From IMG/VR virus record IMGVR_UViG_3300028197_001183, positions 1 to 64,000 of that record: 64,000 bases of DNA; one strand, written 5' to 3'. Source of the stretch: a virus. Within the stretch, counting starts at the first letter, position 1. Each line of letters starts with the position of its first letter. The position numbers and the translations under genes were made by a program. Below the pieces are notes generated by a model. The model was not told where the DNA came from. It ran no database searches and saw nothing but the letters and a program-made list of their open reading frames with translations. Positions 3,545 through 48,200 of the stretch are shown here, piece by piece.

Positions 3545-3834
3545 TACATCACAAGTCTTTTACTAGGTGTTTCAATGATACTAAACATTTGCTCAAACTG
3601 TTTGACCACTGGCTCTTGAGTGTCAAGAGGACCGAATACAATGTAGTCTTTGGGGACAGTCACAGGTGCGTCACGTCCATTCAGAAGTGGTGCCCAAGGA
3701 GCAAACCCCAGTCTACCTTCTCCACTAGGAATAGCGACAATAGGGTTACAGAAGGTGAGACTATCTTCAGTCTCTTCGATCAGGTCTGCAACGACATCTT
3801 CGCCAGACCGCATACGGAATACTTTTACATTCAT
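3544..3834 (-). CDS. Hypothetical protein, LSm-like (paralogue of the gene at 13361)
   Basis: This 96-residue beta-rich protein begins VFRMRSGEDVVADLIEETED and ends in a PKDYIVFGPLD segment followed by a helix. It resembles the 142-residue protein at 13361-13789: both have V-x-(S/T)-G-E-(D/E)-V, then ED..T, then a G-E-..-G-(F/L)-A turn, then a (Y/D)-I-V strand. The pattern recalls Sm/LSm-like small barrels, which often bind RNA, but that is inference. It is coupled by ATGA to gp44 upstream, inside the replication operon. Confidence 0.75.
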   Translation of the reverse strand: MNVKVFRMRSGEDVVADLIEETEDSLTFCNPIVAIPSGEGRLGFAPWAPLLNGRDAPVTVPKDYIVFGPLDTQEPVVKQFEQMFSIIETPSKRLVM

Positions 3835-4778
3835 TTGAATTCACATCTCATCATTAATTCGGTCAGGAATGCCACCATGTTGATCTCTTGGTCAACAACG
3901 AAAGCAGACTTATACTGATACTCAGAGATGACCAGCACTGCTTCAGGAATTGACTTTGGTTGGACATGGATGTAGAGGTTATCATAGATTTTTCTCATTA
4001 TAGAATGGGGCTCGTTGTCCATATTCTGAGTTACCCACTTCTTCATGTTGGTAAACTCTTTTGTGCGAATATATCCCACGAGGTTGGTAATGTTGATGTC
4101 ATTAGAGACACCAAGGATACCTGTATCAATTTTCCCAGAAGAGGAATACCGTTGCAACTCATTGAGTGTGCGACGGAAGTCTGGAAAATATTTCTGGACC
4201 ACCTCAGCGACAACCTTTGGCTCATAGTTGACGCCTTCACTATCTAGGATAGTTTTCACACGGTTGAAAAATGCACCTGCTAATGCCTGCTTATCTTTAC
4301 CCTTGAGGGCGAAGTCAACAACAGAGCATCGTGAGTGTAGGGGAGAGATGATCTTATTCTTGTAGTTACAAGTAAAGATAAATCTACAATTCCCCTGAAA
4401 CTCTTCGATGCAAGCACGGAGAAGCATCTGCACATCAGGTGTGGTGTTATCTGCCTCATCAATAATGATGACCTTATGCTTAGCAGTAGAGGTCAAAGAG
4501 ACTGTAGAAGCATACACTTTTGCCTGGTTACGTACGGTATCGAGGAAACGACCTTCGTCAGATCCGTTGATAACCAGACAGTCAGCACCTAACTCCCTAC
4601 ACAGTGCCTTAGCGATAGTAGTTTTACCAACACCAGCAGACCCTGAGAGTAAGAGATTAGGGATCTCACCCTGATCCAGGAAACCTTGAAAGATTTCTTT
4701 AGTGCTTCCTGGTAGAATGCAGTCTCCAATAGTCTGAGGACGATATTTCTCTACCCAAAGAAACAGTTTGTTACTCAT
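3831..4778 (-). CDS. 44: Clamp loader ATPase gp44
   Basis: This AAA+ ATPase opens and loads the gp45 sliding clamp. It has Walker A GSAGVGKTT (residues 46-54), Walker B VIIIDEAD (103-110) and the clamp-loader SRC motif (149-151). Its 315 residues match T4 gp44 (319). It overlaps gp45 by ATGA, keeping the T4 order 45-44. Downstream, the partner gp62 is separated by an LSm-like protein, a membrane protein, two oxygenases and dam. Confidence 0.96.
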   Translation of the reverse strand: MSNKLFLWVEKYRPQTIGDCILPGSTKEIFQGFLDQGEIPNLLLSGSAGVGKTTIAKALCRELGADCLVINGSDEGRFLDTVRNQAKVYASTVSLTSTAKHKVIIIDEADNTTPDVQMLLRACIEEFQGNCRFIFTCNYKNKIISPLHSRCSVVDFALKGKDKQALAGAFFNRVKTILDSEGVNYEPKVVAEVVQKYFPDFRRTLNELQRYSSSGKIDTGILGVSNDINITNLVGYIRTKEFTNMKKWVTQNMDNEPHSIMRKIYDNLYIHVQPKSIPEAVLVISEYQYKSAFVVDQEINMVAFLTELMMRCEFK

Positions 4779-5497
4779 TTGTTAGGCTCTAGTGCGATGA
4801 AGTAGTTGAGGGATGAGCTGGAGAGACTGGTGAAGTTGGCAATGTTACGTCGTGAGAGCGTTACATGATAACTACCAGGGAGCAGTTTCAGATTCTCAAC
4901 CTTGAAACAATAGCAAAACGTAAGACGCTCAACTGTCATATTACCTGGGTCGCTGAAGGTTGGTTTCTTCAGTGGCAGGGAGAAGACATTAGAAGTGTCA
5001 TTCTTTTTGTCCTTTACACAGATACTATACTCACCTTCAAATCCATAGATGCAGAGATCTTCCACACCATAGACTTTGGATGCCTGCATCAGTTGCTCTA
5101 GATCCATCTGTGGCAGGTCAAAGAATAACTCAGTCTCAGGGAGGTTAGGATTAAACTCAGGGACTTTGCCGATGATGTCGGGATCACTGTAGTAGAAGGT
5201 AGTCTTACCCTTAGTGTCCTCGTCGTAGATCACAACCTTCTTGCTATCAGGGTAGAAGAGAGTGGGAGACTTGAAGAGGGACAAAGCACCGAGGAAGAGA
5301 GGCAGATCATAGATTGCCATCTGCTCAGGGATTCCCTCACGGATATCGCTTGCAGCGATGATATTCTTATTGACTGACATCGTTTCAACAAACTTACCAG
5401 GCTCAATAAGAATAGATTTGTTAATACCACTGAAGTTACGGAGTAAATCAATGGTTTGCTTACTCAGTTTAACAGTTTGTCTTGCTTCGGCTTGCAT
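4775..5497 (-). CDS. 45: Sliding clamp gp45
   Basis: The 240 residues match the T4-like processivity clamp (T4 228 residues). Recognisable segments are LSKQTIDLLRNFSGINKSIL, IYDLPLFLGALSLF and TFCYCFKVENLKLLPGSYHV. The trimeric clamp tethers DNA polymerase. In T4 it also activates late transcription together with gp55 and gp33, so this gene links replication to the late promoters seen here. It is separated by only two bases from the DUF3310-like gene upstream. Confidence 0.94.
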   Translation of the reverse strand: MQAEARQTVKLSKQTIDLLRNFSGINKSILIEPGKFVETMSVNKNIIAASDIREGIPEQMAIYDLPLFLGALSLFKSPTLFYPDSKKVVIYDEDTKGKTTFYYSDPDIIGKVPEFNPNLPETELFFDLPQMDLEQLMQASKVYGVEDLCIYGFEGEYSICVKDKKNDTSNVFSLPLKKPTFSDPGNMTVERLTFCYCFKVENLKLLPGSYHVTLSRRNIANFTSLSSSSLNYFIALEPNK

Positions 5498-5499
5498 AA

Positions 5500-5787
5500 T
5501 TACTGGGGGTAAGTTTCGGTTGTTGTAGACTGGTCGCTGAAGTGAATCAGCAACACAGCATAGTGTAGCACTTTCATAAGGTCACGTCTAGCAGTGCCTT
5601 TCTTGTCATAGCGAGAAGCGTACTTTAGGATGTTACTCCTACAGAATGCCTCAGCGTCACCACAAGCATTGATGAGATCAAGGGTCTGGATACCTTCGGC
5701 ACCACTGGAATAGTGTTGCCGATAGGTGCCAATGATATAGTCTTTCAACTCCTTGATGATCTCTTCTTCGTTATACTTGTTTGCCAT
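5500..5787 (-). CDS. DUF3310-like small protein
   Basis: This 95-residue protein has the segment FCRSNILKYASRYDKKGTAR followed by RDLMKVLHYAVLLI. It resembles the DUF3310 (SaV-like) family of phages, whose core is a GN.IKYI.RY..KG...DL.KA..Y pattern. Some members are annotated as nucleotide-kinase-like, but no kinase motif is visible. It lies between cobS and gp45 in the replication operon. Confidence 0.7.
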   Translation of the reverse strand: MANKYNEEEIIKELKDYIIGTYRQHYSSGAEGIQTLDLINACGDAEAFCRSNILKYASRYDKKGTARRDLMKVLHYAVLLIHFSDQSTTTETYPQ

Positions 5788-5815: not shown

Positions 5816-6898
5816 TCAGAGATTGAGAGGATTGTCAACAGAGATGTCAACGTCGGCATCAATCTTATCATACAACTCAATGAATGACTGCTTAGTCTCG
5901 TCATCAAAACGGTTGAGACATACCTTGATTGCCTTCACACGGTCAGAGAAGATACTGTATGCACGGATAATGTGGACAAGACGACGGGTAGAGATTACCT
6001 CATCAACACCACCATCCTTGAAAGTCTTACGGATGATGTCTGCCCAAGAAACAAGATTCTTGATGAAGTCATCATCGCAACAATCCAACTCGGTGCAGTA
6101 GTTGTGGAGCATCTTAATCTCAAGAGCAGGAGCAGGATAGTCTTGCTCAAAGGTCACAGGGAAACGCTCAAGGAATGCTTCATTGAGTACGTTAGTGCCG
6201 ATGAAACGACCGTCATCGCTACCTTTACCTTTAGTATTGGCAGTAGCAAAGATGTTGAAACCAGGAGCAGGTGTGACCTGACGACCAATCTTCTTAAGGA
6301 AGACACCCTTACCTTCTAGGACGGATTGCAGGCAGAGGATTTTGTTGGATGCGAGATCGATCTCGTCAAGTAGGAGCACTGCTCCACGCTCAAGTGCTTC
6401 AATAACTGGTCCATTGTGCCATACAGTGTTACCATCGACAAGACGGAAACCGCCAATAAGATCGTCTTCATCAGTTTCTACAGTAATGTTTACACGAATT
6501 AATTCACGCCCAAGAGCAGCACATGCTTGATCAACACCAAGGGTCTTACCGTTACCAGAGAGTCCCGTGATGAATGTGGGGTAGAAGATCTTAGACTTGA
6601 TGATCTTCTTAAGGTCAGTAGCGTTGCCGAAGGGCACATAGTTAGCATCCTTAGGGGGAATAAGTGATTCACTCTGCTTTACAACAGTCTCAAGTTGTTG
6701 CTTGATTTCTTGCACAGACAGATTCCACTTACCAATACCTGCTTTGTAGTCAATGAGACGCTTCTTGACAGTGGCAAAGGAGCAAGAGAAGTACTCAGCA
6801 GCACCCAACAATTCCGTAGTACCGACGCGCTCGCCATGCTTGCTTTGGAGATATTCAACGATTTGATCAGTGGTCACGGGGTGTTGGGCGAAAGTCAT
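5816..6898 (-). CDS. cobS: CobS-like / MoxR-type AAA+ ATPase
   Basis: This 360-residue AAA+ protein is widely carried by cyanomyoviruses as cobS. An N-terminal helical domain (about 1-60, ending in TVKKRLIDYKAGIGKWN) could be DNA- or partner-binding. The ATPase has Walker A GLSGNGKT (112-119), Walker B AVLLLDEID (173-181) and a sensor-1 Asn in FATANTKGKG. In cobalamin synthesis CobS works with CobT and CobN to insert cobalt. Here a CobT-like gene is nearby but no CobN is seen, so a MoxR-like remodelling role is equally possible. It has its own leader with a TATAAT and an inverted repeat. Confidence 0.88.
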   Translation of the reverse strand: MTFAQHPVTTDQIVEYLQSKHGERVGTTELLGAAEYFSCSFATVKKRLIDYKAGIGKWNLSVQEIKQQLETVVKQSESLIPPKDANYVPFGNATDLKKIIKSKIFYPTFITGLSGNGKTLGVDQACAALGRELIRVNITVETDEDDLIGGFRLVDGNTVWHNGPVIEALERGAVLLLDEIDLASNKILCLQSVLEGKGVFLKKIGRQVTPAPGFNIFATANTKGKGSDDGRFIGTNVLNEAFLERFPVTFEQDYPAPALEIKMLHNYCTELDCCDDDFIKNLVSWADIIRKTFKDGGVDEVISTRRLVHIIRAYSIFSDRVKAIKVCLNRFDDETKQSFIELYDKIDADVDISVDNPLNL

Positions 6899-6910
6899 GT
6901 GTTTCTTTGT

Positions 6911-6933
6911 TGTGTATACAGTTATTATACACA
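6911..6933 (-). promoter_or_regulatory. cobS promoter -10 and inverted-repeat operator
   Basis: A perfect 8-bp inverted repeat, TGTGTATA - 7 nt - TATACACA, lies 13 nt before the cobS ATG. On the minus strand the left arm runs into TATAAT (6924-6929), a good -10 hexamer. No -35 hexamer is visible at 16-18 nt. The same -10 plus an ATACACAA..AAAGAAA..CATGAC leader precedes cobT, suggesting shared control. Confidence 0.55.
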
Positions 6934-7461
6934 GGCAGGAGTGGAGTAGTAGTCCACCCAGGACGGTTTGTGAGCTGGCACACGCAGGTAGTTATTTGCT
7001 ACCCATGGTTTGCTTGCCACATACCGTTGGTATGCTTCGATAGTAGAGATACTGTCGTCAAACTTCCACTCGTCAGGCATAGCGCGAGCGAATGGAGTGT
7101 GGTCATCAGGACAACCATGTTGATACGTGAGTGCAGCAACAAAGATTGATGATTGACAGGCATGTCTTTTACCGTATCTATATGTATATTCTTCACATAG
7201 AGAAATGCCATGCTGCATCAACCACTGAATATTATGATCAGACTCTGCCACCCACTTAGTGCAAGGATGATTACGAAATGCACCCTTCTCTGTAGCGTAA
7301 GGAGTCCCATCTTTCTTCAGGACAGGACCCTCATTGAGATACCACTTACTGAATACAATAGCGAGCATCTGACAACACTCTAGTGGCATCTTGACGATGT
7401 GTTTGTCTGGCAGACAAGTTGCTGCCAGGGTTGGATCATCATCTACTGCAAAGATATTCAT
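6925..7461 (-). CDS. Conserved phage protein of unknown function
   Basis: This 178-residue protein opens with MNIFAVDDDPTLAATCLPDK and HIVKMPLECCQML. It continues with HPCTKWVAESDHNIQWL and CEEYTYRYGKRHACQ, ending in MPDEWKF and a YQRYVASKPW segment. I recognise it as a family seen in T4-like phages and some bacteria, but I know no demonstrated function. The conserved D, H, K, E, Y and R residues look like an enzyme active site. It is coupled to cobT by ATGA and sits between cobT and cobS, so it may act with them. Confidence 0.75.
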   Translation of the reverse strand: MNIFAVDDDPTLAATCLPDKHIVKMPLECCQMLAIVFSKWYLNEGPVLKKDGTPYATEKGAFRNHPCTKWVAESDHNIQWLMQHGISLCEEYTYRYGKRHACQSSIFVAALTYQHGCPDDHTPFARAMPDEWKFDDSISTIEAYQRYVASKPWVANNYLRVPAHKPSWVDYYSTPACV

Positions 7462-9572
7462 GCAATTTGGTTGATAAAGGACGAGAGGATCTTCTTGTTG
7501 TTGGACTTTGCCTTAAGGGTCTTCTTGAAGGCACGAGTAATCTGTGCCTTGGATGCATCCTCATCTACATCAAACTCTACCTCTTCATTTAACTTGTTAC
7601 TTTGAATTAGAAACAATTCTTGATAACCCATCATTGGGGCAGAGGTTGACTTAAACTTCTTGAATACATCAGTAGCATTCCTCCTCTGTAGTTGAGTAAG
7701 ATCGTTGAAGTTTTGGATGATGTAATTGATATCACGAGTGCTACCAAGACGGAAACCAGTGAAGTTACACTGTGGGAAACGACCCTTCATGTAACGTAAG
7801 AGAGTTTCAGTCATGTAGTTACCCCACTTTGGTGAGTTGTAGGTGCGACCTGTCTTGCGACAACGAATAGCAGATTGTGCAGGCATTGCAGAGCGATGGA
7901 TCTTATCATCATAGGCAGACCTGATCCAGCATCCAGACCAGTTGCTCTCACCATCAGACAAGATAGTGACGTGACACTTTTCAACACCATATTTGGCAGT
8001 AAATACAGGAATCAGAGTCTGGAGACACACGATTGCCTCATTTAGAGGGGTGCCACCAAGCATAAGGTGAGGGGGAATGCAATCAGGGACAGGGCGAGAT
8101 TGGAATGGATTGCGGTTACCATAGCGTTGCTCATACATCTGAGACACACGGTAAAGATCCCTGGCATAGCGATCAAAAACACTGTTACTAAGGTCTCCAT
8201 TGAGTAATTCTATAAGGTGGAAGTGCTTAGCAACATATAAAGTATTCTCCTTACCAAAAGACTCTTCATAGTCACGAAACTCAGCGTATGATGCATCAGT
8301 TACAAAGGCATATACACTGAATGGGATACCAGACTTGCGACAGAAGAAGCACAGTGACAACAGTTGCCTGAATGTATCATGAATAATTTCTGCCATAGAT
8401 CCAGACCAGTCAACAAGGAAGATCAAACCATGATTCTTACCATCAGGACGGACTGTGACCTTCTTAAAGAGGTCTTCGTTGTAAAGATACTGATGGAGTT
8501 TAGCAGTGTCAAGTACACCAGTCTTAGAGATAGACTCGCGAGCATGTGCTGCTGCAGACTTCTTCATCTCAAACTCTTTCTGAAGATATGACACCTCACG
8601 GGTGCAATCTCTCTTAAAAGTGTTGTAATTTTGGTCTGCAACACTCCAGTCAAGACCTGTCGATGGAGTGAGAGGATGCTTCCACTCAGACCAGTATGTC
8701 TGTGCCATGTCATTGATCATCTTAGGGTCAATAACGACGTGATTAATGTCAACATTAGGAATCTCAAAATACCTAGTCTCAGAGTTAGTATTTTCAGTTG
8801 CAATGTCTTGCAGTGCTTCCTCAAGAGACTCATCAGTCATTGCCTCTTCACCACCATTACGGTTGAATGAGGGTGTTTCAAGGTCTGCATCTTGCTCACC
8901 TTCACTATCACCTTCTTGCTCCTCATCACCATCTCCAGAAGAAGGTCTCTCATCTTGTGATTCCTGCTGGTCGCTACCACCACCAGAATTGTTGTCTACA
9001 TCAGTGATATCATCAATTTTTTGCTGATCTGCTTCTGCTTTTTCAAACTCTTTGATAGCGACAGCAGCATCGATAGCGTCTTGGAAAGACTCTGCCTCAC
9101 CAACTGCATCGCGAAGAGGAATCTCTTCAGCAGAGAAGGGCATAAAGGCATTTGCACCCAATTTATAGTAAAGATTGATACGGTCAATCAGTTTGAGTGA
9201 GTTGGTGTTGATCTCCTTGACGCTGAAGAAATCATCTTCATGAAGTTGCTTGTATCCACCATAGAAATCCTTGGAAATACCTGCAAATTTGCGTTTCATT
9301 AGTTTCTCAATGCGAGCATCCTCAGTCACATTGACATAAGACTTGGGGCAAGGAAGTTTGTCTAGAATGTCACCGTCTGGGGTGAAGAGAGCGTGACCCA
9401 CTTCATGCGCTACCAGCAGATTGAAGACAATTTCCTTAGCATTCCAGATAGGGAGGGTCAAGACTCGCCTATGCACATCAAAGGATGCTGTGCTGACTGC
9501 CCTGTGCTCTACAACTAGGTTTTCAGTGGCGAGTAGTTTGGCGAGAGTGCCTTTGACTTCTTGTACGGTCAT
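7458..9572 (-). CDS. cobT: CobT-like protein with HEXXH and VWA domains
   Basis: This protein of about 704 residues starts at ATG 9572 (MTVQEVKGTLAKLL). A longer GTG frame from 9608 would run through the TATAAT promoter and is rejected. An N-terminal domain carries a metalloprotease-like HEVGH (56-60) and NVTEDARIEKL. A very acidic linker follows at about 190-245. A C-terminal VWA domain has the MIDAS residues DWSGS (about 385), GGTPLNEA and LSDGES. This is the CobT architecture, partner of the CobS ATPase. HEXXH makes proteolysis or zinc binding possible. Confidence 0.85.
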   Translation of the reverse strand: MTVQEVKGTLAKLLATENLVVEHRAVSTASFDVHRRVLTLPIWNAKEIVFNLLVAHEVGHALFTPDGDILDKLPCPKSYVNVTEDARIEKLMKRKFAGISKDFYGGYKQLHEDDFFSVKEINTNSLKLIDRINLYYKLGANAFMPFSAEEIPLRDAVGEAESFQDAIDAAVAIKEFEKAEADQQKIDDITDVDNNSGGGSDQQESQDERPSSGDGDEEQEGDSEGEQDADLETPSFNRNGGEEAMTDESLEEALQDIATENTNSETRYFEIPNVDINHVVIDPKMINDMAQTYWSEWKHPLTPSTGLDWSVADQNYNTFKRDCTREVSYLQKEFEMKKSAAAHARESISKTGVLDTAKLHQYLYNEDLFKKVTVRPDGKNHGLIFLVDWSGSMAEIIHDTFRQLLSLCFFCRKSGIPFSVYAFVTDASYAEFRDYEESFGKENTLYVAKHFHLIELLNGDLSNSVFDRYARDLYRVSQMYEQRYGNRNPFQSRPVPDCIPPHLMLGGTPLNEAIVCLQTLIPVFTAKYGVEKCHVTILSDGESNWSGCWIRSAYDDKIHRSAMPAQSAIRCRKTGRTYNSPKWGNYMTETLLRYMKGRFPQCNFTGFRLGSTRDINYIIQNFNDLTQLQRRNATDVFKKFKSTSAPMMGYQELFLIQSNKLNEEVEFDVDEDASKAQITRAFKKTLKAKSNNKKILSSFINQIA

Positions 9573-9593
9573 GCTTTCTTTGTGTATGAATCT

Positions 9594-9599
9594 ATTATA
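9594..9599 (-). promoter_or_regulatory. cobT promoter -10 (TATAAT)
   Basis: A perfect TATAAT lies 22 nt before the cobT ATG at 9572. It is followed by a leader (ATACACAAAGAAAG then CATGAC) nearly identical to the cobS leader. No convincing -35 is present, as at cobS, so an activator or modified polymerase may be needed. Confidence 0.5.
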
Positions 9600-9637
9600 C
9601 CCACCCACATGACCCGTGGAAGGGTTAGGGTGCCACT

Positions 9638-11353
9638 TTATAGACTGTCCTGCTTCATGGTGCTGAAGTCACCGATCTTGTCAAAAGTGACCACAGTATC
9701 AAACTTGTCCAGAAGGATATCACCCTTGTGACTGATCACAAATAGGTTGGTCCTATCGTCCATACCCCTCAGAATCTTCATCAGTTCCTCTGTAGCAGCA
9801 GTATCAAGAGAAGAATCGAATACCTCGTCAAGAATGAGGAGATTGGTCGATGCAGAGTTTTTCATCTTGGCAATGTCACGCCAGCAAAACAGTAAAGATA
9901 GGTCAATTTTCTGCTTTTCACCCTCTGAAAACGATGCATAAGAGAACTCATCACGGTAGCGTGACTTGATAACTTCATTGAATTCTTCATCCAATGTGAA
10001 GTTAACAAAGAAGTCCATGAGTTGCAGATATTTATTGATTTGATTGTTAAAAATAGGCACAAACTTACTGATAACCTTACTTTTAATACCACTGTCCCTG
10101 AGTAAGGAGGATACAATTTTCAGGTTATCAAACTCCTTACTGACACCAGCACAACGCTCTATATTTTCACTATATTCTGCCTCGTATTCGTCTAATCTTA
10201 CCCTCTCACCATCAATATCTGGGGTCTCTTTGTTTACCTCGGCCATGATGCTTTCATTCTCTTTAAGCAGTCGTGATACCTGCTTACCAATGTTAATATT
10301 ATCACTCTGTAACTCAATAATTGACTGCCCATAACCCTTCATGTCACGCAGTTTGTCATAGATGAGACCGACTTGCTCATCGATCTTTGTATAACCTTCA
10401 TTATACTTAACACGACGTGACTCAGCATCCACAAGTTGACGATGCTTATGCTCTTCTTCTAGGTCTTGACTACATGTTGGACACTTATCATGCTTGGTAT
10501 AGAACTTATGATCTTTCTCTGCCTTGTTTTTATTCTGCTCAATCTTAGATCGCATGTCACGGAGACTATCATACTTCTCTTGCCATGAAGATTGGTCTGT
10601 AATACTTTCAGCAAGCACACCCATCGAGTGATTGTTTTCTTCATGACGCTTATTCAAACTTACTATATTATCTTCGTTGTTATTAAACTTTGAGTGCAAA
10701 CTTTTAATAACGCCATCCTGTAACTCAGTGAGTTTGTGGATAGATGTACGTTGATGATTCAGTTTTGTCTCACAGATCTCCAACACATGCTTACATGATG
10801 TGAAATTCTCTTTATTATCCTTGACTCTATCCTTCAGGATAGTATTCATCTTAGAAAAGATTTTGATGTCGAGCAGGTCTTCTACCACCTCTCTCCTATG
10901 TGTGGCAGGAAGTTGCATGAAAGGCACAAATGTACTGCTACCTAGGATAACAACCTGTGTAAATGACTTGTAGTTAAACTTGAGGATGCTCTGCTCTAGA
11001 TATTTCTGGTAGTCTTTTTGGGCAGCGTCTTGATCAAGCAGTTGTCCGTTTCTAAGGACCTTAAAGATGCCTGGTTTGATGCCTCTAATGACATGATAAT
11101 TTACTTTACCAATAGAAAACTCAACCTCCACACAGCACTCTTTCTCATTGACGCTGTTGACCAGTTGAGACTTATTAATTTTACGAAAAGGTTTATTGAA
11201 TAGCACAAAACACAGGGCATCCAACATAGTGGATTTACCTGCGCCATTAGATCCGATAACAAGTTGCGACTTAGACTCATTGAGAATCATTTCCGTAAAG
11301 GTATTACCTGTACTTAAGAAATTCTTCCAACGAATCTTTTCAAATACAATCAT
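9638..11353 (-). CDS. 46: Recombination nuclease subunit gp46 (SbcC/Rad50-like)
   Basis: This 571-residue SMC-like ATPase of the gp46/gp47 complex resects DNA ends for phage recombination and host DNA breakdown. It shows Walker A IGSNGAGKST (33-42), a long coiled coil with a zinc hook CPTC (291-294), the ABC signature FSEGEK (475-480) and Walker B LLILDEVFD (505-513). Its length equals T4 gp46 (560). The start overlaps the DUF3110-like gene by ATGA. The stop is followed by the cobT promoter. Confidence 0.96.
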   Translation of the reverse strand: MIVFEKIRWKNFLSTGNTFTEMILNESKSQLVIGSNGAGKSTMLDALCFVLFNKPFRKINKSQLVNSVNEKECCVEVEFSIGKVNYHVIRGIKPGIFKVLRNGQLLDQDAAQKDYQKYLEQSILKFNYKSFTQVVILGSSTFVPFMQLPATHRREVVEDLLDIKIFSKMNTILKDRVKDNKENFTSCKHVLEICETKLNHQRTSIHKLTELQDGVIKSLHSKFNNNEDNIVSLNKRHEENNHSMGVLAESITDQSSWQEKYDSLRDMRSKIEQNKNKAEKDHKFYTKHDKCPTCSQDLEEEHKHRQLVDAESRRVKYNEGYTKIDEQVGLIYDKLRDMKGYGQSIIELQSDNINIGKQVSRLLKENESIMAEVNKETPDIDGERVRLDEYEAEYSENIERCAGVSKEFDNLKIVSSLLRDSGIKSKVISKFVPIFNNQINKYLQLMDFFVNFTLDEEFNEVIKSRYRDEFSYASFSEGEKQKIDLSLLFCWRDIAKMKNSASTNLLILDEVFDSSLDTAATEELMKILRGMDDRTNLFVISHKGDILLDKFDTVVTFDKIGDFSTMKQDSL

Positions 11354-44712: not shown

Positions 44713-44958
44713 TCAAGTAGTTTCCAGGTCATCGGGATCGACAGTCCCGTCTGGAAGTGGCTCAGCTTCTTCTTCAGTAGCAGGTGGATTGAGATACTCA
44801 AGAGTCTCAATAGCACCTAGAAGTTTTAGAGCGGTAGCTTCATTGCTCTTAATCTTGTCTGCCATCTCACGGTTGTCTTTCAAAAGACCCTGGTAGCGAG
44901 TTTTGAATTGCTCAAGCAATTCCTCTTGTGAGGCAGTTTCAGTCACATCAGCTGGCAT
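44713..44958 (-). CDS. Small acidic coiled-coil protein
   Basis: ATG 44958 has a perfect AAGGAG 6 nt upstream; the longer frame from 45003 lacks one. The 81 residues include ELLEQFKTRYQGLLKDNREM, ADKIKSNEATALKLLGAIET and LEYLNPPATEEE, one long amphipathic helix with an acidic tail. Located between baseplate and fibre genes and closed by a terminator, it may be a structural linker or assembly helper. No family is recognised. Confidence 0.75.
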   Translation of the reverse strand: MPADVTETASQEELLEQFKTRYQGLLKDNREMADKIKSNEATALKLLGAIETLEYLNPPATEEEAEPLPDGTVDPDDLETT

Positions 44959-45238
44959 TGTTGTCTCCTTGTAGTAATGATTTAAGTAGGTTTTTGATTT
45001 CACCGATATCTGATTTTAACCCAGATACCTCATCTTGTAAAGTGTTTAACTTCTCCTCTTTCTTGGTGCGACGATTAAATGCCGCCATATAGTTGTCATA
45101 CTCTGACATATTACAATTCACAATAGCATTACTATTTGGGTCACGAAACCAACCATCCCTGCCTTCAACAGGGATTAGGTCTTCTTTGAATGGTTTAATG
45201 TAATCAGTTGAGTCAGTTGAGTCAGAAATGCTTGACAT
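44948..45238 (-). CDS. Small coiled-coil protein, 96 residues
   Basis: Starting at ATG 45238 (a TTG six bases earlier is an alternative), the protein has a polar N-terminus with EDLIPVEGRDGWFRDPNSNA and IVNCNMSEYDNYMAAFNRRT, then a coiled coil (LNTLQDEVSGLKSDIGEIKN). The GRDGW.RD..SNAIVN segment resembles a short conserved phage motif. It overlaps the next gene by 11 nt. Together the two helical proteins might form a trimeric or whisker-like part. Confidence 0.7.
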   Translation of the reverse strand: MSSISDSTDSTDYIKPFKEDLIPVEGRDGWFRDPNSNAIVNCNMSEYDNYMAAFNRRTKKEEKLNTLQDEVSGLKSDIGEIKNLLKSLLQGDNNAS

Positions 45239-45267
45239 ATCCAAGAATAATTATTATAATAACCGTG

Positions 45268-48200
45268 TTAGGTTGCAAGAGCAATGGATCTGAGATCAGC
45301 TATGAGTGGTACTCGTGCTTGATTTTTAGATCTCATTACAATCTTCACTTGGAAGGCGTTAAAGTTAAGTCCCCTTGCTTCATATGTATAATCCTTCCAA
45401 AGGTATTCTTCTGTAGGAGTTGTATCATATGCTTCACCTAAGTTTTGATTGGAAGTGGGGAGACCCATTTGTGTCCAACCAATAGTCTGAGGATCAGTTG
45501 CATCACCAACCTTGAATGCCTTGTAGTAAATACGAAGCTCGGTAGCAGGGTGACGGGTAACTTGGAAGTCAATCTTCAGTGAGCGTGCTTCTTTACCCAA
45601 ACGTGCGAGACGTGTGACATAGACAGCATCATTTTGATCACCAATTGCAAGAGTAGAAACATCCTGGTCTCTATCAATTTGTGATTGCTGACCGTAAGTT
45701 GATTGTCCACCTGGCCACATATTCACGCGGTTAGATGTTGTAATCAGTGACACACGGTCAAGGTCAATACAAGGTGAGAGGGATGATTTCTCAGTCTCAA
45801 GCATGATTGACATAGTAAGAGACTTGTTACCATCCAGTTTGTTTTGCTCATTAATCTTAGATGCTACCATCTGAGGAGCAGTAAACTGGTTTTGCTCATT
45901 CAATACAATGTCAACATAAGTGCCATTATTGATGAAAGAGTTTTGGTCAACTACATTAGATCCATCACCAACGGATGTAGCAGTAGTGGTATTCAATCTT
46001 GCTGATATTTGTGTGTCTGCCATAACCATCGTAGACACCGTAGGTGTAATGGTTTCAAACTGGACATTCTGCGAAGAATAAACGTTAGTGCCACCACCAC
46101 GAATACCGTTAGTCGCAACACTATCAATGTGCAACATGTAGGTATCTAACCATGGGCAAGAGATAGTAGTATGGACCTTATTGATTTGGGTTAGAGGAAT
46201 GCCATCAAGGTTGTAGCATTCAACAACTGCACCAGAGGCGTGCTCAACATCAGCAGTGCCATTGTTACCTCTACCAGAGGTTGCCACTGTGATAACTTGA
46301 CCGTTAGAAGAGATCGAAGAGTATTGAATAATCTCATCTTCAATCTTCAAATAACCTTGGTTAAGGTTGCCAATTGGAGATCCACCAATAATGATATGGA
46401 ATTGAGATCCGTCATTGACCTGAATTGAAGTTGATCCAGCAGTCAGAGTAGTTGTCAACGTAGTAGGAGGCACTTCGGAGATAATACCCTCAACCTCAAC
46501 GTTGTTGCTACGTTGGTGCATACCATGGTTTCTGTGATAAACCAATACTTCCTTGTCATCATTAGGATAAGAAGGAGCAGCAGTTGGGAATGCATTGTAG
46601 GAATCGCCGCTGTAGGTGACGCTAGTGATCGTTGCAGATGTGCCACCTGGCTCAGATAGAGTATCCGAAAGATCGTATGCTCTAGTGATGTAGTTAAGTG
46701 TCAATGTCTGGGTCCCAGTATCATATGCTGTGACAACACCAGTTGAAGCAGATGTGGATCCACTTACAACATCACCAACTTCAAACGTGCCGTTAAAGAT
46801 TGCAGACAGGACAATCGTGGCGACAGATTGGGAAGAGGCGATGCCTTGGAATGTATTGTTGTTAGCATCGAGGAAACCAGCAGACCAGATACCGTCAATA
46901 TCTGAGATAGTAATGGTTTCAGGATCAGTAGTTGCGTCAAATTCAGTAATCGTGCCTTCTGCATTAGAAGGTGTTTGGACGATTCTTGCACCAACTGTAA
47001 ATGTGTAGTTGGTACCCACAGGAAGCGTGAGAGTCTGCTTAGGTTTCAGAGTCTGAATTGGATTTTCAATCAGTCTGTGAATACCATTGTTACCCTTACC
47101 AAGCTCAGCGTTGTTAAAGATCGCAGTGCCCAGATTCTGAGTAAACTCAGCACGATACATTGTAAACTTAAGATCTTCATACTGGTCAGCAGTCCAGGTA
47201 GAAGCGTTTTGGGACTTGAAGAGCACACCAGCATATGGTTGCTCGGAAATTGTCCTTGTGCCTGTCACATCAACGTCACCCATTCTGGAGATCCAAACGT
47301 TATATTCGTTGGAGTCAGACAGAAGCACGAAGCAATATTCAATGTTTGATTTAATATAAACAGGAGATCTGAATGTAAATCTTGTAGGAATACTTGCGTT
47401 TTCCGACAACTCCACAGTGTCAGGATCGATAGTAGTATCAGAGAAAGGAATAATATCCTTGGTAGGATAACCATTCTCCATTGTCCTGATCTGAATTGAG
47501 ATAGGAATGTTAGCGTCCTTAGTCCTGAAGAAGATGTCAACACCTGTCAAGAATACGCCGCCTTCCGAATCGCAAATAAAGGATTGTGCAAGAGGGTCAT
47601 ACCAACCAATCTGACGTTGCTCAGTTCTGGTAGTAATAACAGTCCTTTCATCGTTAACTGTATCGCGGACGATCTCAGCATTACGCATAGCAAGGATGTT
47701 TTCTCTAACAGTCTGTAAGGTGCCAGTTGCAGAGTATGCTGCATCTGCAGAAGAGTCTACATTTCCAGGAGTCCTATCATTAGTATCCGAAGTTGTGACT
47801 CTAACCGTCCTTGTGCCAGTTGCCCAGCGTGGGTTAGAATCATTCTTAGGAGAAGGAATGAAGAAAGTACCTTGTAGGTTACCAACGTTATCAGCAAGAA
47901 GACGACGGTCTCTTACAACAGCACGAGCGCCAGAGGTCAGTCCAAGAAGGACTTCACCCACGTTGACGTTACCGTAGAAGTTGGGGTTGACTGTCTCTGC
48001 CATTGCAGTGATATCAATATTCAAGAAGTTGGTTTGTGATGCATAAGACTCAGCAAGTCCAGTTGCACCAACACCATAGGGGTCAGTCTTATATCCATCA
48101 TTAGCAGGAGCAACTAATATTCTTGCACCAGAAGTCTGACCCACCACAGTTTCACCAACCACGAAAGGAGTTTCGTTGGAGTTGGGATCTGAAGTAGAAG

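Follow-up and report, generated by a model that had tools for sequence, protein, structure and literature searches.

In a virus related to the T4-like marine cyanophages, two non-adjacent genes, cobS and cobT, begin behind what appears to be the same leader. This raises the question of what the repeated block does, and through which part of it a common regulator might act. Cyanomyoviruses have no homologues of alt, modA, modB, motA or asiA, and their early and middle transcription was called unclear in 2010 (PMC2984593). The DNA analysed here (the window) comprises 64,000 nucleotides of a 91,219-bp virus record, and its closest DNA relative across this stretch is P-TIM40. From the letters of the window, the initial annotation had proposed that cobS and cobT share a duplicated leader with operator-like repeats and are co-regulated by one factor.

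Results

Genes of the cobT-cobS region

On the minus strand, the genes run in the order gp46, cobT, orf178, cobS, the DUF3310 gene, gp45 and gp44 (Table 1). The 3′ end of orf178 carries the candidate cobS operator described below, and its stop codon falls within the cobS -10. The names cobS and cobT point to cobalamin synthesis; the proteins themselves look like a MoxR/CbbQ-type AAA+ ATPase and, for cobT, a large protein that has a HEVGH motif close to its N-terminus, as seen in the translation. A Pfam search of the cobT-like protein returned no family.

Table 1. Positions of genes and predicted promoter elements in the window
Feature	Position	Strand	Details
gp44	3831-4778	-	Named by position and P-TIM40 gene order
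gp45	4775-5497	-	Named by position and P-TIM40 gene order
DUF3310 gene	5500-5787	-	Downstream of cobS, in the run headed by cobS
cobS-like gene, MoxR/CbbQ-type AAA+ ATPase	5816-6898	-	AAA_5 3e-17, CbbQ_C 5e-5 (Pfam); phrog_249 1.5e-135
orf178, Pyr_excise family	6925-7461	-	PF03013 3e-15; phrog_624 1.7e-74
cobT-like "peptidase" gene	7458-9572	-	phrog_459 1.5e-227; phrog_5298 (cobalamin biosynthesis) 1.8e-7
cobS leader		-	TGTGTATAATAACTGTATACACAACAAAGAAACAC, then ATGAC (start codon onward); also written CCTGTGTATAATAACTGTATACACAACAAAGAAACAC, then ATG
cobT leader		-	GGGTATAATAGATTCATACACAAAGAAAGC, then ATGAC (start codon onward)
Predicted cobS start and 19-nt A/C-rich leader	6899-6917	-	+1 near 6917; ATACACAACAAAGAAACAC
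Predicted cobT start and 15-nt leader	9573-9587	-	+1 near 9587; ATACACAAAGAAAGC
cobS -10 hexamer TATAAT	6924-6929	-	29 bp past the right half of the operator; spacing fixed in relatives
cobT -10 hexamer TATAAT	9594-9599	-	29 bp past the right half of the operator
Candidate cobS operator core	6962-6979	-	GCCAGCT-CACA-AACCGTC; scored region 6957-6982; within the 3′ end of the orf178 coding sequence
Candidate cobT operator core	9632-9649	-	GACAGTC-TATA-AAGTGGC; scored region 9627-9652; straddles the gp46 stop codon
8-bp inverted repeat, TGTGTATA-N7-TATACACA	6911-6933	-	Arms 6911-6918 and 6926-6933; exact; operator of the initial annotation

The shared leader

The same blocks do stand in the same order at both genes, and the shared leader is real and exact, with some of its details corrected here. 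GTATAATA, exactly 5 nt (not the 3-4 nt given earlier) and ATACACAA follow one another upstream of both cobS and cobT, with no third copy in the 91-kb record, and TATAATA-N5-ATACACAA occurs exactly twice in all 91,219 bp. Matches with up to three mismatches are no more frequent in the window than chance predicts (five, with 2.9 expected), the exact ones being those of cobS and cobT only. The CATGAC block is present at both genes but includes the start codon, and AAAGAAA, previously listed as a separate block, overlaps ATACACAA at cobT and not at cobS. No TTGACA-type -35 at 16-18 bp pairs with either -10, as had been stated.

Column frequencies in relatives reveal a conserved CATA 11-14 nt past the first base of the -10, followed by a T-poor leader. 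The ATACACAA/AAAGAAA block and the repeat at the -10 appear to correspond to the -10, the region around the start site and a leader rich in A and C, and not to an operator. There is also a second leader type, in which GTAATC or GTAAGC after the -10 replaces CATACACAA; it was seen in leaders L007, L188 and L189 and at the Syn9 -10 sites at 130405 and 162105.

An upstream dyad at fixed spacing

The sequence ahead of both genes was aligned across up to 80 viral contigs with cobS relatives. Per-column conservation made visible a dyad that the initial annotation had missed, with the consensus GACA(G/C)TT-N4-AA(C/G)TGTC (GACASTT-N4-AASTGTC). Comparison also establishes the architecture and its fixed spacing: at both genes the right half of the dyad ends 28-30 bp before the -10 (mode 29; 29 ± 1), as found in 54/55 scored cobS and 44/46 scored cobT relatives. 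The centre of the dyad lies 41.5 bp before the first -10 base, or about -53.5 from a start placed at the conserved CATA. The operators of the window are degenerate, with three mismatches to the strict palindrome at cobS and two at cobT. This dyad is the likely conserved site for a factor, and it appears to stand in the place of a -35. Many of the leaders L005-L080 contain a G+C-rich hairpin and a T-run inside the 29-bp spacer between dyad and -10, so that an upstream terminator appears to be nested in the promoter.

Scans with the composite model

A composite model of dyad, spacing and -10 was trained on contigs other than those scanned, with a score cut-off of 20. Both window sites fit the composite definition, namely a -10 with a dyad right half 28-30 bp upstream (here 29). 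In the record of the window, two sites scored at least 20, those of cobS and cobT, where 0.00 were expected and shuffles gave none. P-TIM40 yielded 13 such sites (0.05 expected) and Syn9 four (0.10 expected), counts that are not independent, since the sequences behind the model and those scanned are related by descent. The cobS composite scored 41.2, or 38.9 with near relatives removed from the model (whose highest shuffle reached 16.2), and that of cobT 37.8, or 38.2 without near relatives.

Each leader could also be found from the other. With near relatives excluded, a model built from cobT leaders only placed the cobS site of the window second in the 91-kb record (29.4; shuffle maximum 15.1), behind only the cobT site, and one built from cobS leaders only ranked the cobT site second after cobS (33.4; shuffle maximum 16.1). 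Together with the common architecture, this supports the co-regulation by one factor that had been proposed, as far as it can be judged from sequence.

When viral contigs were searched with the palindrome only, 80 loci were retrieved, with 87 palindromes, or 174 oriented sites. A -10 followed at 28-30 in 38 of these sites, against 0-3 at each other spacing. The proteins behind these matches, named from sequence, include helicase-like proteins, a cobT relative and many small ORFs of no known function.

Distribution and candidate regulon

Among isolated cyanomyoviruses, the composite stands at both cobS and cobT in all eight examined (S-PM2, P-SSM3, P-RSM1, S-CAM4, S-RIM2, P-SSM7, P-TIM40 and Syn9), and in the first six of these it is kept at both genes even though the upstream genes differ. 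With the motif thus present in relatives, one of the objections anticipated in the initial annotation, its absence from them, falls away. No composite above threshold was seen in Pseudoalteromonas phage XG4, a carrier of a cobS-like gene, and the first 50 kb of the Pelagibacter phage HTVC008M gave one match, scoring 12.2 with a weak -10.

The leader is not, as had been suggested, a duplication private to cobS and cobT, for comparison places the same composite at other genes of P-TIM40 and Syn9. In P-TIM40, the sites lie mostly before small ORFs at 45-55 kb, and also at the helicase gene, cobT, cobS and gp182; in Syn9, they include the helicase gene, cobT, cobS, gp61 and gp183, among others. 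The helicase gene is a candidate regulon member common to both phages. So are two uncharacterized families, phrog_455 (P-TIM40 gp182 and Syn9 gp183) and phrog_11812 (P-TIM40 gp59 and Syn9 gp61), each preceded by the composite in both.

Two further features of these sites were observed. At seven -10 sites of P-TIM40 (L083-L086; 46531, 50348, 52519, 53340, 53814, 54382 and 55077), a block near CACTACCGT lies between dyad and -10. It is missing at cobS and cobT, and may possibly be the site of a second factor or a mark of the small-ORF cluster. Annotated starts precede the promoter -10 in Syn9 (L087; gene 44804-45466, -10 at 44827) and P-TIM40 (L085; gene 45074-46366, -10 at 45080), and the real starts are thus probably further downstream. 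The phrog_11812 match in Syn9 gp61 begins at residue 14.

Overlap of the candidate cobS operator with orf178

Whether the orf178 homologue lies next to cobS depends on the phage, and its C-terminal residues differ with placement. A comparison of the two placements brings out a coding pattern beneath the cobS operator: K-P-S-W is written AAA CCG TCN TGG in 17/19 homologues that end just upstream of cobS and in 0/21 of those placed elsewhere in which the site can be read, although these homologues are related and the counts are not independent events. None of the homologues placed elsewhere has CCG TC; they read K-P-[EDNY]-W, with KPSW occurring once, as CCT TCT. Across the orf178 homologue genes compared, CCG accounts for 31 of 507 proline codons. 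The two exceptions beside cobS, P-TIM40 and P-SSM7, have the operator in another register. In the clade of the window, conservation of the cobS operator is confounded with coding, although homologues in other positions lack the pattern. That the two placements differ in this way supports selection on the cobS operator of the window despite its three mismatches.

Discussion

The explanation that we favour, with a probability of roughly four in five as a whole, is that a composite promoter common to marine T4-like cyanophages is present here in two copies, one driving cobS and the other cobT. Its sigma70-type -10 (TATAAT) would be read by the host RNA polymerase without a -35, in whose stead a DNA-binding dimer bound to the dyad would recruit or stabilize the polymerase. 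In the phage of the window, the two promoters would fire cobT (with orf178) and cobS (with the DUF3310 gene, gp45 and gp44) together. On this reading, the protein bound at the dyad would be an activator brought by the phage, the promoters would belong to the early class, and the genes downstream would be co-transcribed.

Nearest to hand among the other readings is a repressor acting at the inverted repeat around the cobS -10, which the initial annotation rightly described as perfect over 8 bp and took, by implication, for the operator. The repeat is exact at cobS, and of 77 cobS leaders (counting that of the window) 11 have arms of at least 6 bp, above the 2.6% given by column-independent resampling. 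At cobT, however, the longest inverted repeat is only 4 bp, and a covariation signal at offset 15 there is of a kind that relatedness can produce. Among the 77 leaders, only those of the window and of its close relative L001 have all 8 bp; L002-L004, L036 and L075 have a 7-bp repeat. Positions flanking the cobS -10 show no covariation, and the TATA of the -10 and the conserved start-site CATA pair by default. On its absence from cobT, its clade-specific full length and the lack of covariation at cobS, the repeat was set aside as the operator, and a repressor binding it seems to us highly improbable; the most fitting reading is that in this clade the pairing between the -10 TATA and the start-site CATA has been extended. 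Very little credence can likewise be given to the dyad as an RNA hairpin, serving as a processing or 3′-end protection signal instead of a DNA operator. Several sites are perfect inverted repeats, and in the P-TIM40 small-ORF cluster two have TGTGCCA...TGGCACA in place of the TGTGACA...TGTCACA of others. Over 116 sites, however, complementarity between symmetric positions does not exceed what columns varying independently would give (77 seen against 79.1 expected in one instance), and an RNA role leaves the fixed distance to the downstream -10 unexplained. Because the half-sites vary independently in this comparison, a dimeric DNA-binding protein is likelier than a hairpin.

The hairpin and T-run between dyad and -10 in many relatives, and the overlap of the dyad with the 3′ end of the preceding gene in the window, would also suit plain host-like -10 promoters at cobS and cobT, with the dyad being part of another feature, for instance the 3′ end or terminator of the gene before it. 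We regard this as improbable, as the distance from dyad to -10 is constant with or without a hairpin and whatever the upstream gene, contigs retrieved by the dyad only show a -10 at the same spacing, and no terminator was called at either window site. A more serious contender, although still an unlikely one, is that the composite is real but that the protein at its dyad is a transcription factor of the host, exploited by cyanomyoviruses. If the composite serves early genes, the factor must act before new phage proteins exist, and cyanophage genomes have been proposed to contain sites for host NtcA (PMC3037559). Against this, 20 cyanobacterial genomes contain 14 dyads with at most one mismatch versus 17 for a reversed control, thus without enrichment, although degenerate host sites would escape such a count. 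At the same stringency, none was found in the T7-like cyanophages P-SSP7 and Syn5, and there were seven in P-TIM40 and four in Syn9, with 0 and 0 for the reversed control. These counts lean towards a factor brought by the T4-like cyanophages, either delivered with the virion or made first.

Within the composite-promoter explanation, we would tentatively suggest, at rather less than even odds, that T4-like cyanophages carry or encode a dimeric activator of their own, absent from T4, which switches a conserved gene set via the dyad, and that, where its sites overlap neighbouring genes, they have remodelled the ends of the encoded proteins. A "transcriptional regulator" of phrog_385 was dropped as a candidate for this factor, as it had no Pfam match.

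Work by Doron et al. in 2016 (ISME J 10:1437) reportedly studied Syn9 and P-TIM40 and described a new early-gene transcription element widespread in T4-like cyanophages. The dyad composite, which marks the small-ORF cluster of P-TIM40, one of the same phages, is probably that element. Early timing for the composite is suggested by this gene cluster and by that study; a literature search returned no statement of the Doron motif or of the expression class of cobS. The description of the dyad, the membership of cobS and cobT, and the coding overlap come from the present analysis.

PeSL cassettes of T4-type phages are reportedly treated in Arbiol 2010 and Comeau 2014. These Promoter-early stem-loop cassettes, named in PMC4503421, combine an early promoter with a hairpin and resemble the many relatives here with a hairpin next to the -10. 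They differ from the window leaders, at neither of which a stem-loop terminator was called, and the conserved part in our case is the dyad. A host sigma70 (SigA) promoter has the TATAAT -10 in common with the composite, which has a dyad near -53.5 instead of a -35. The T4 middle promoter (MotA box and -10) is like the composite in that it lacks a usable -35 and has an activator site a set distance upstream; the dyad differs from it in sequence and sits further upstream, and cyanomyoviruses have neither motA nor asiA (PMC2984593). Reading the sequences by eye, without a MotA matrix, we saw no MotA box (TGCTTTA) near -30 at either site.

For phages that start transcription without the Alt, ModA, AsiA and MotA of T4, a sharply defined site held at constant spacing from the -10 offers a direct handle on the protein that would bind it. 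If the composite acts as proposed, cobS and cobT would join the regulon of the small-ORF cluster, probably bringing in the sliding clamp and clamp loader by way of cobS. The cobS operator would in addition be an example of a regulatory site overlapping a coding end, with the residues following the site.

T4 late promoter boxes of the TATAAATA type were absent from the cobS and cobT leaders. Eight late-promoter-like NATAAATA boxes were found in the window, at 10036, 16272, 19676, 22243, 31783, 34802, 44680 and 54146, all on the minus strand.
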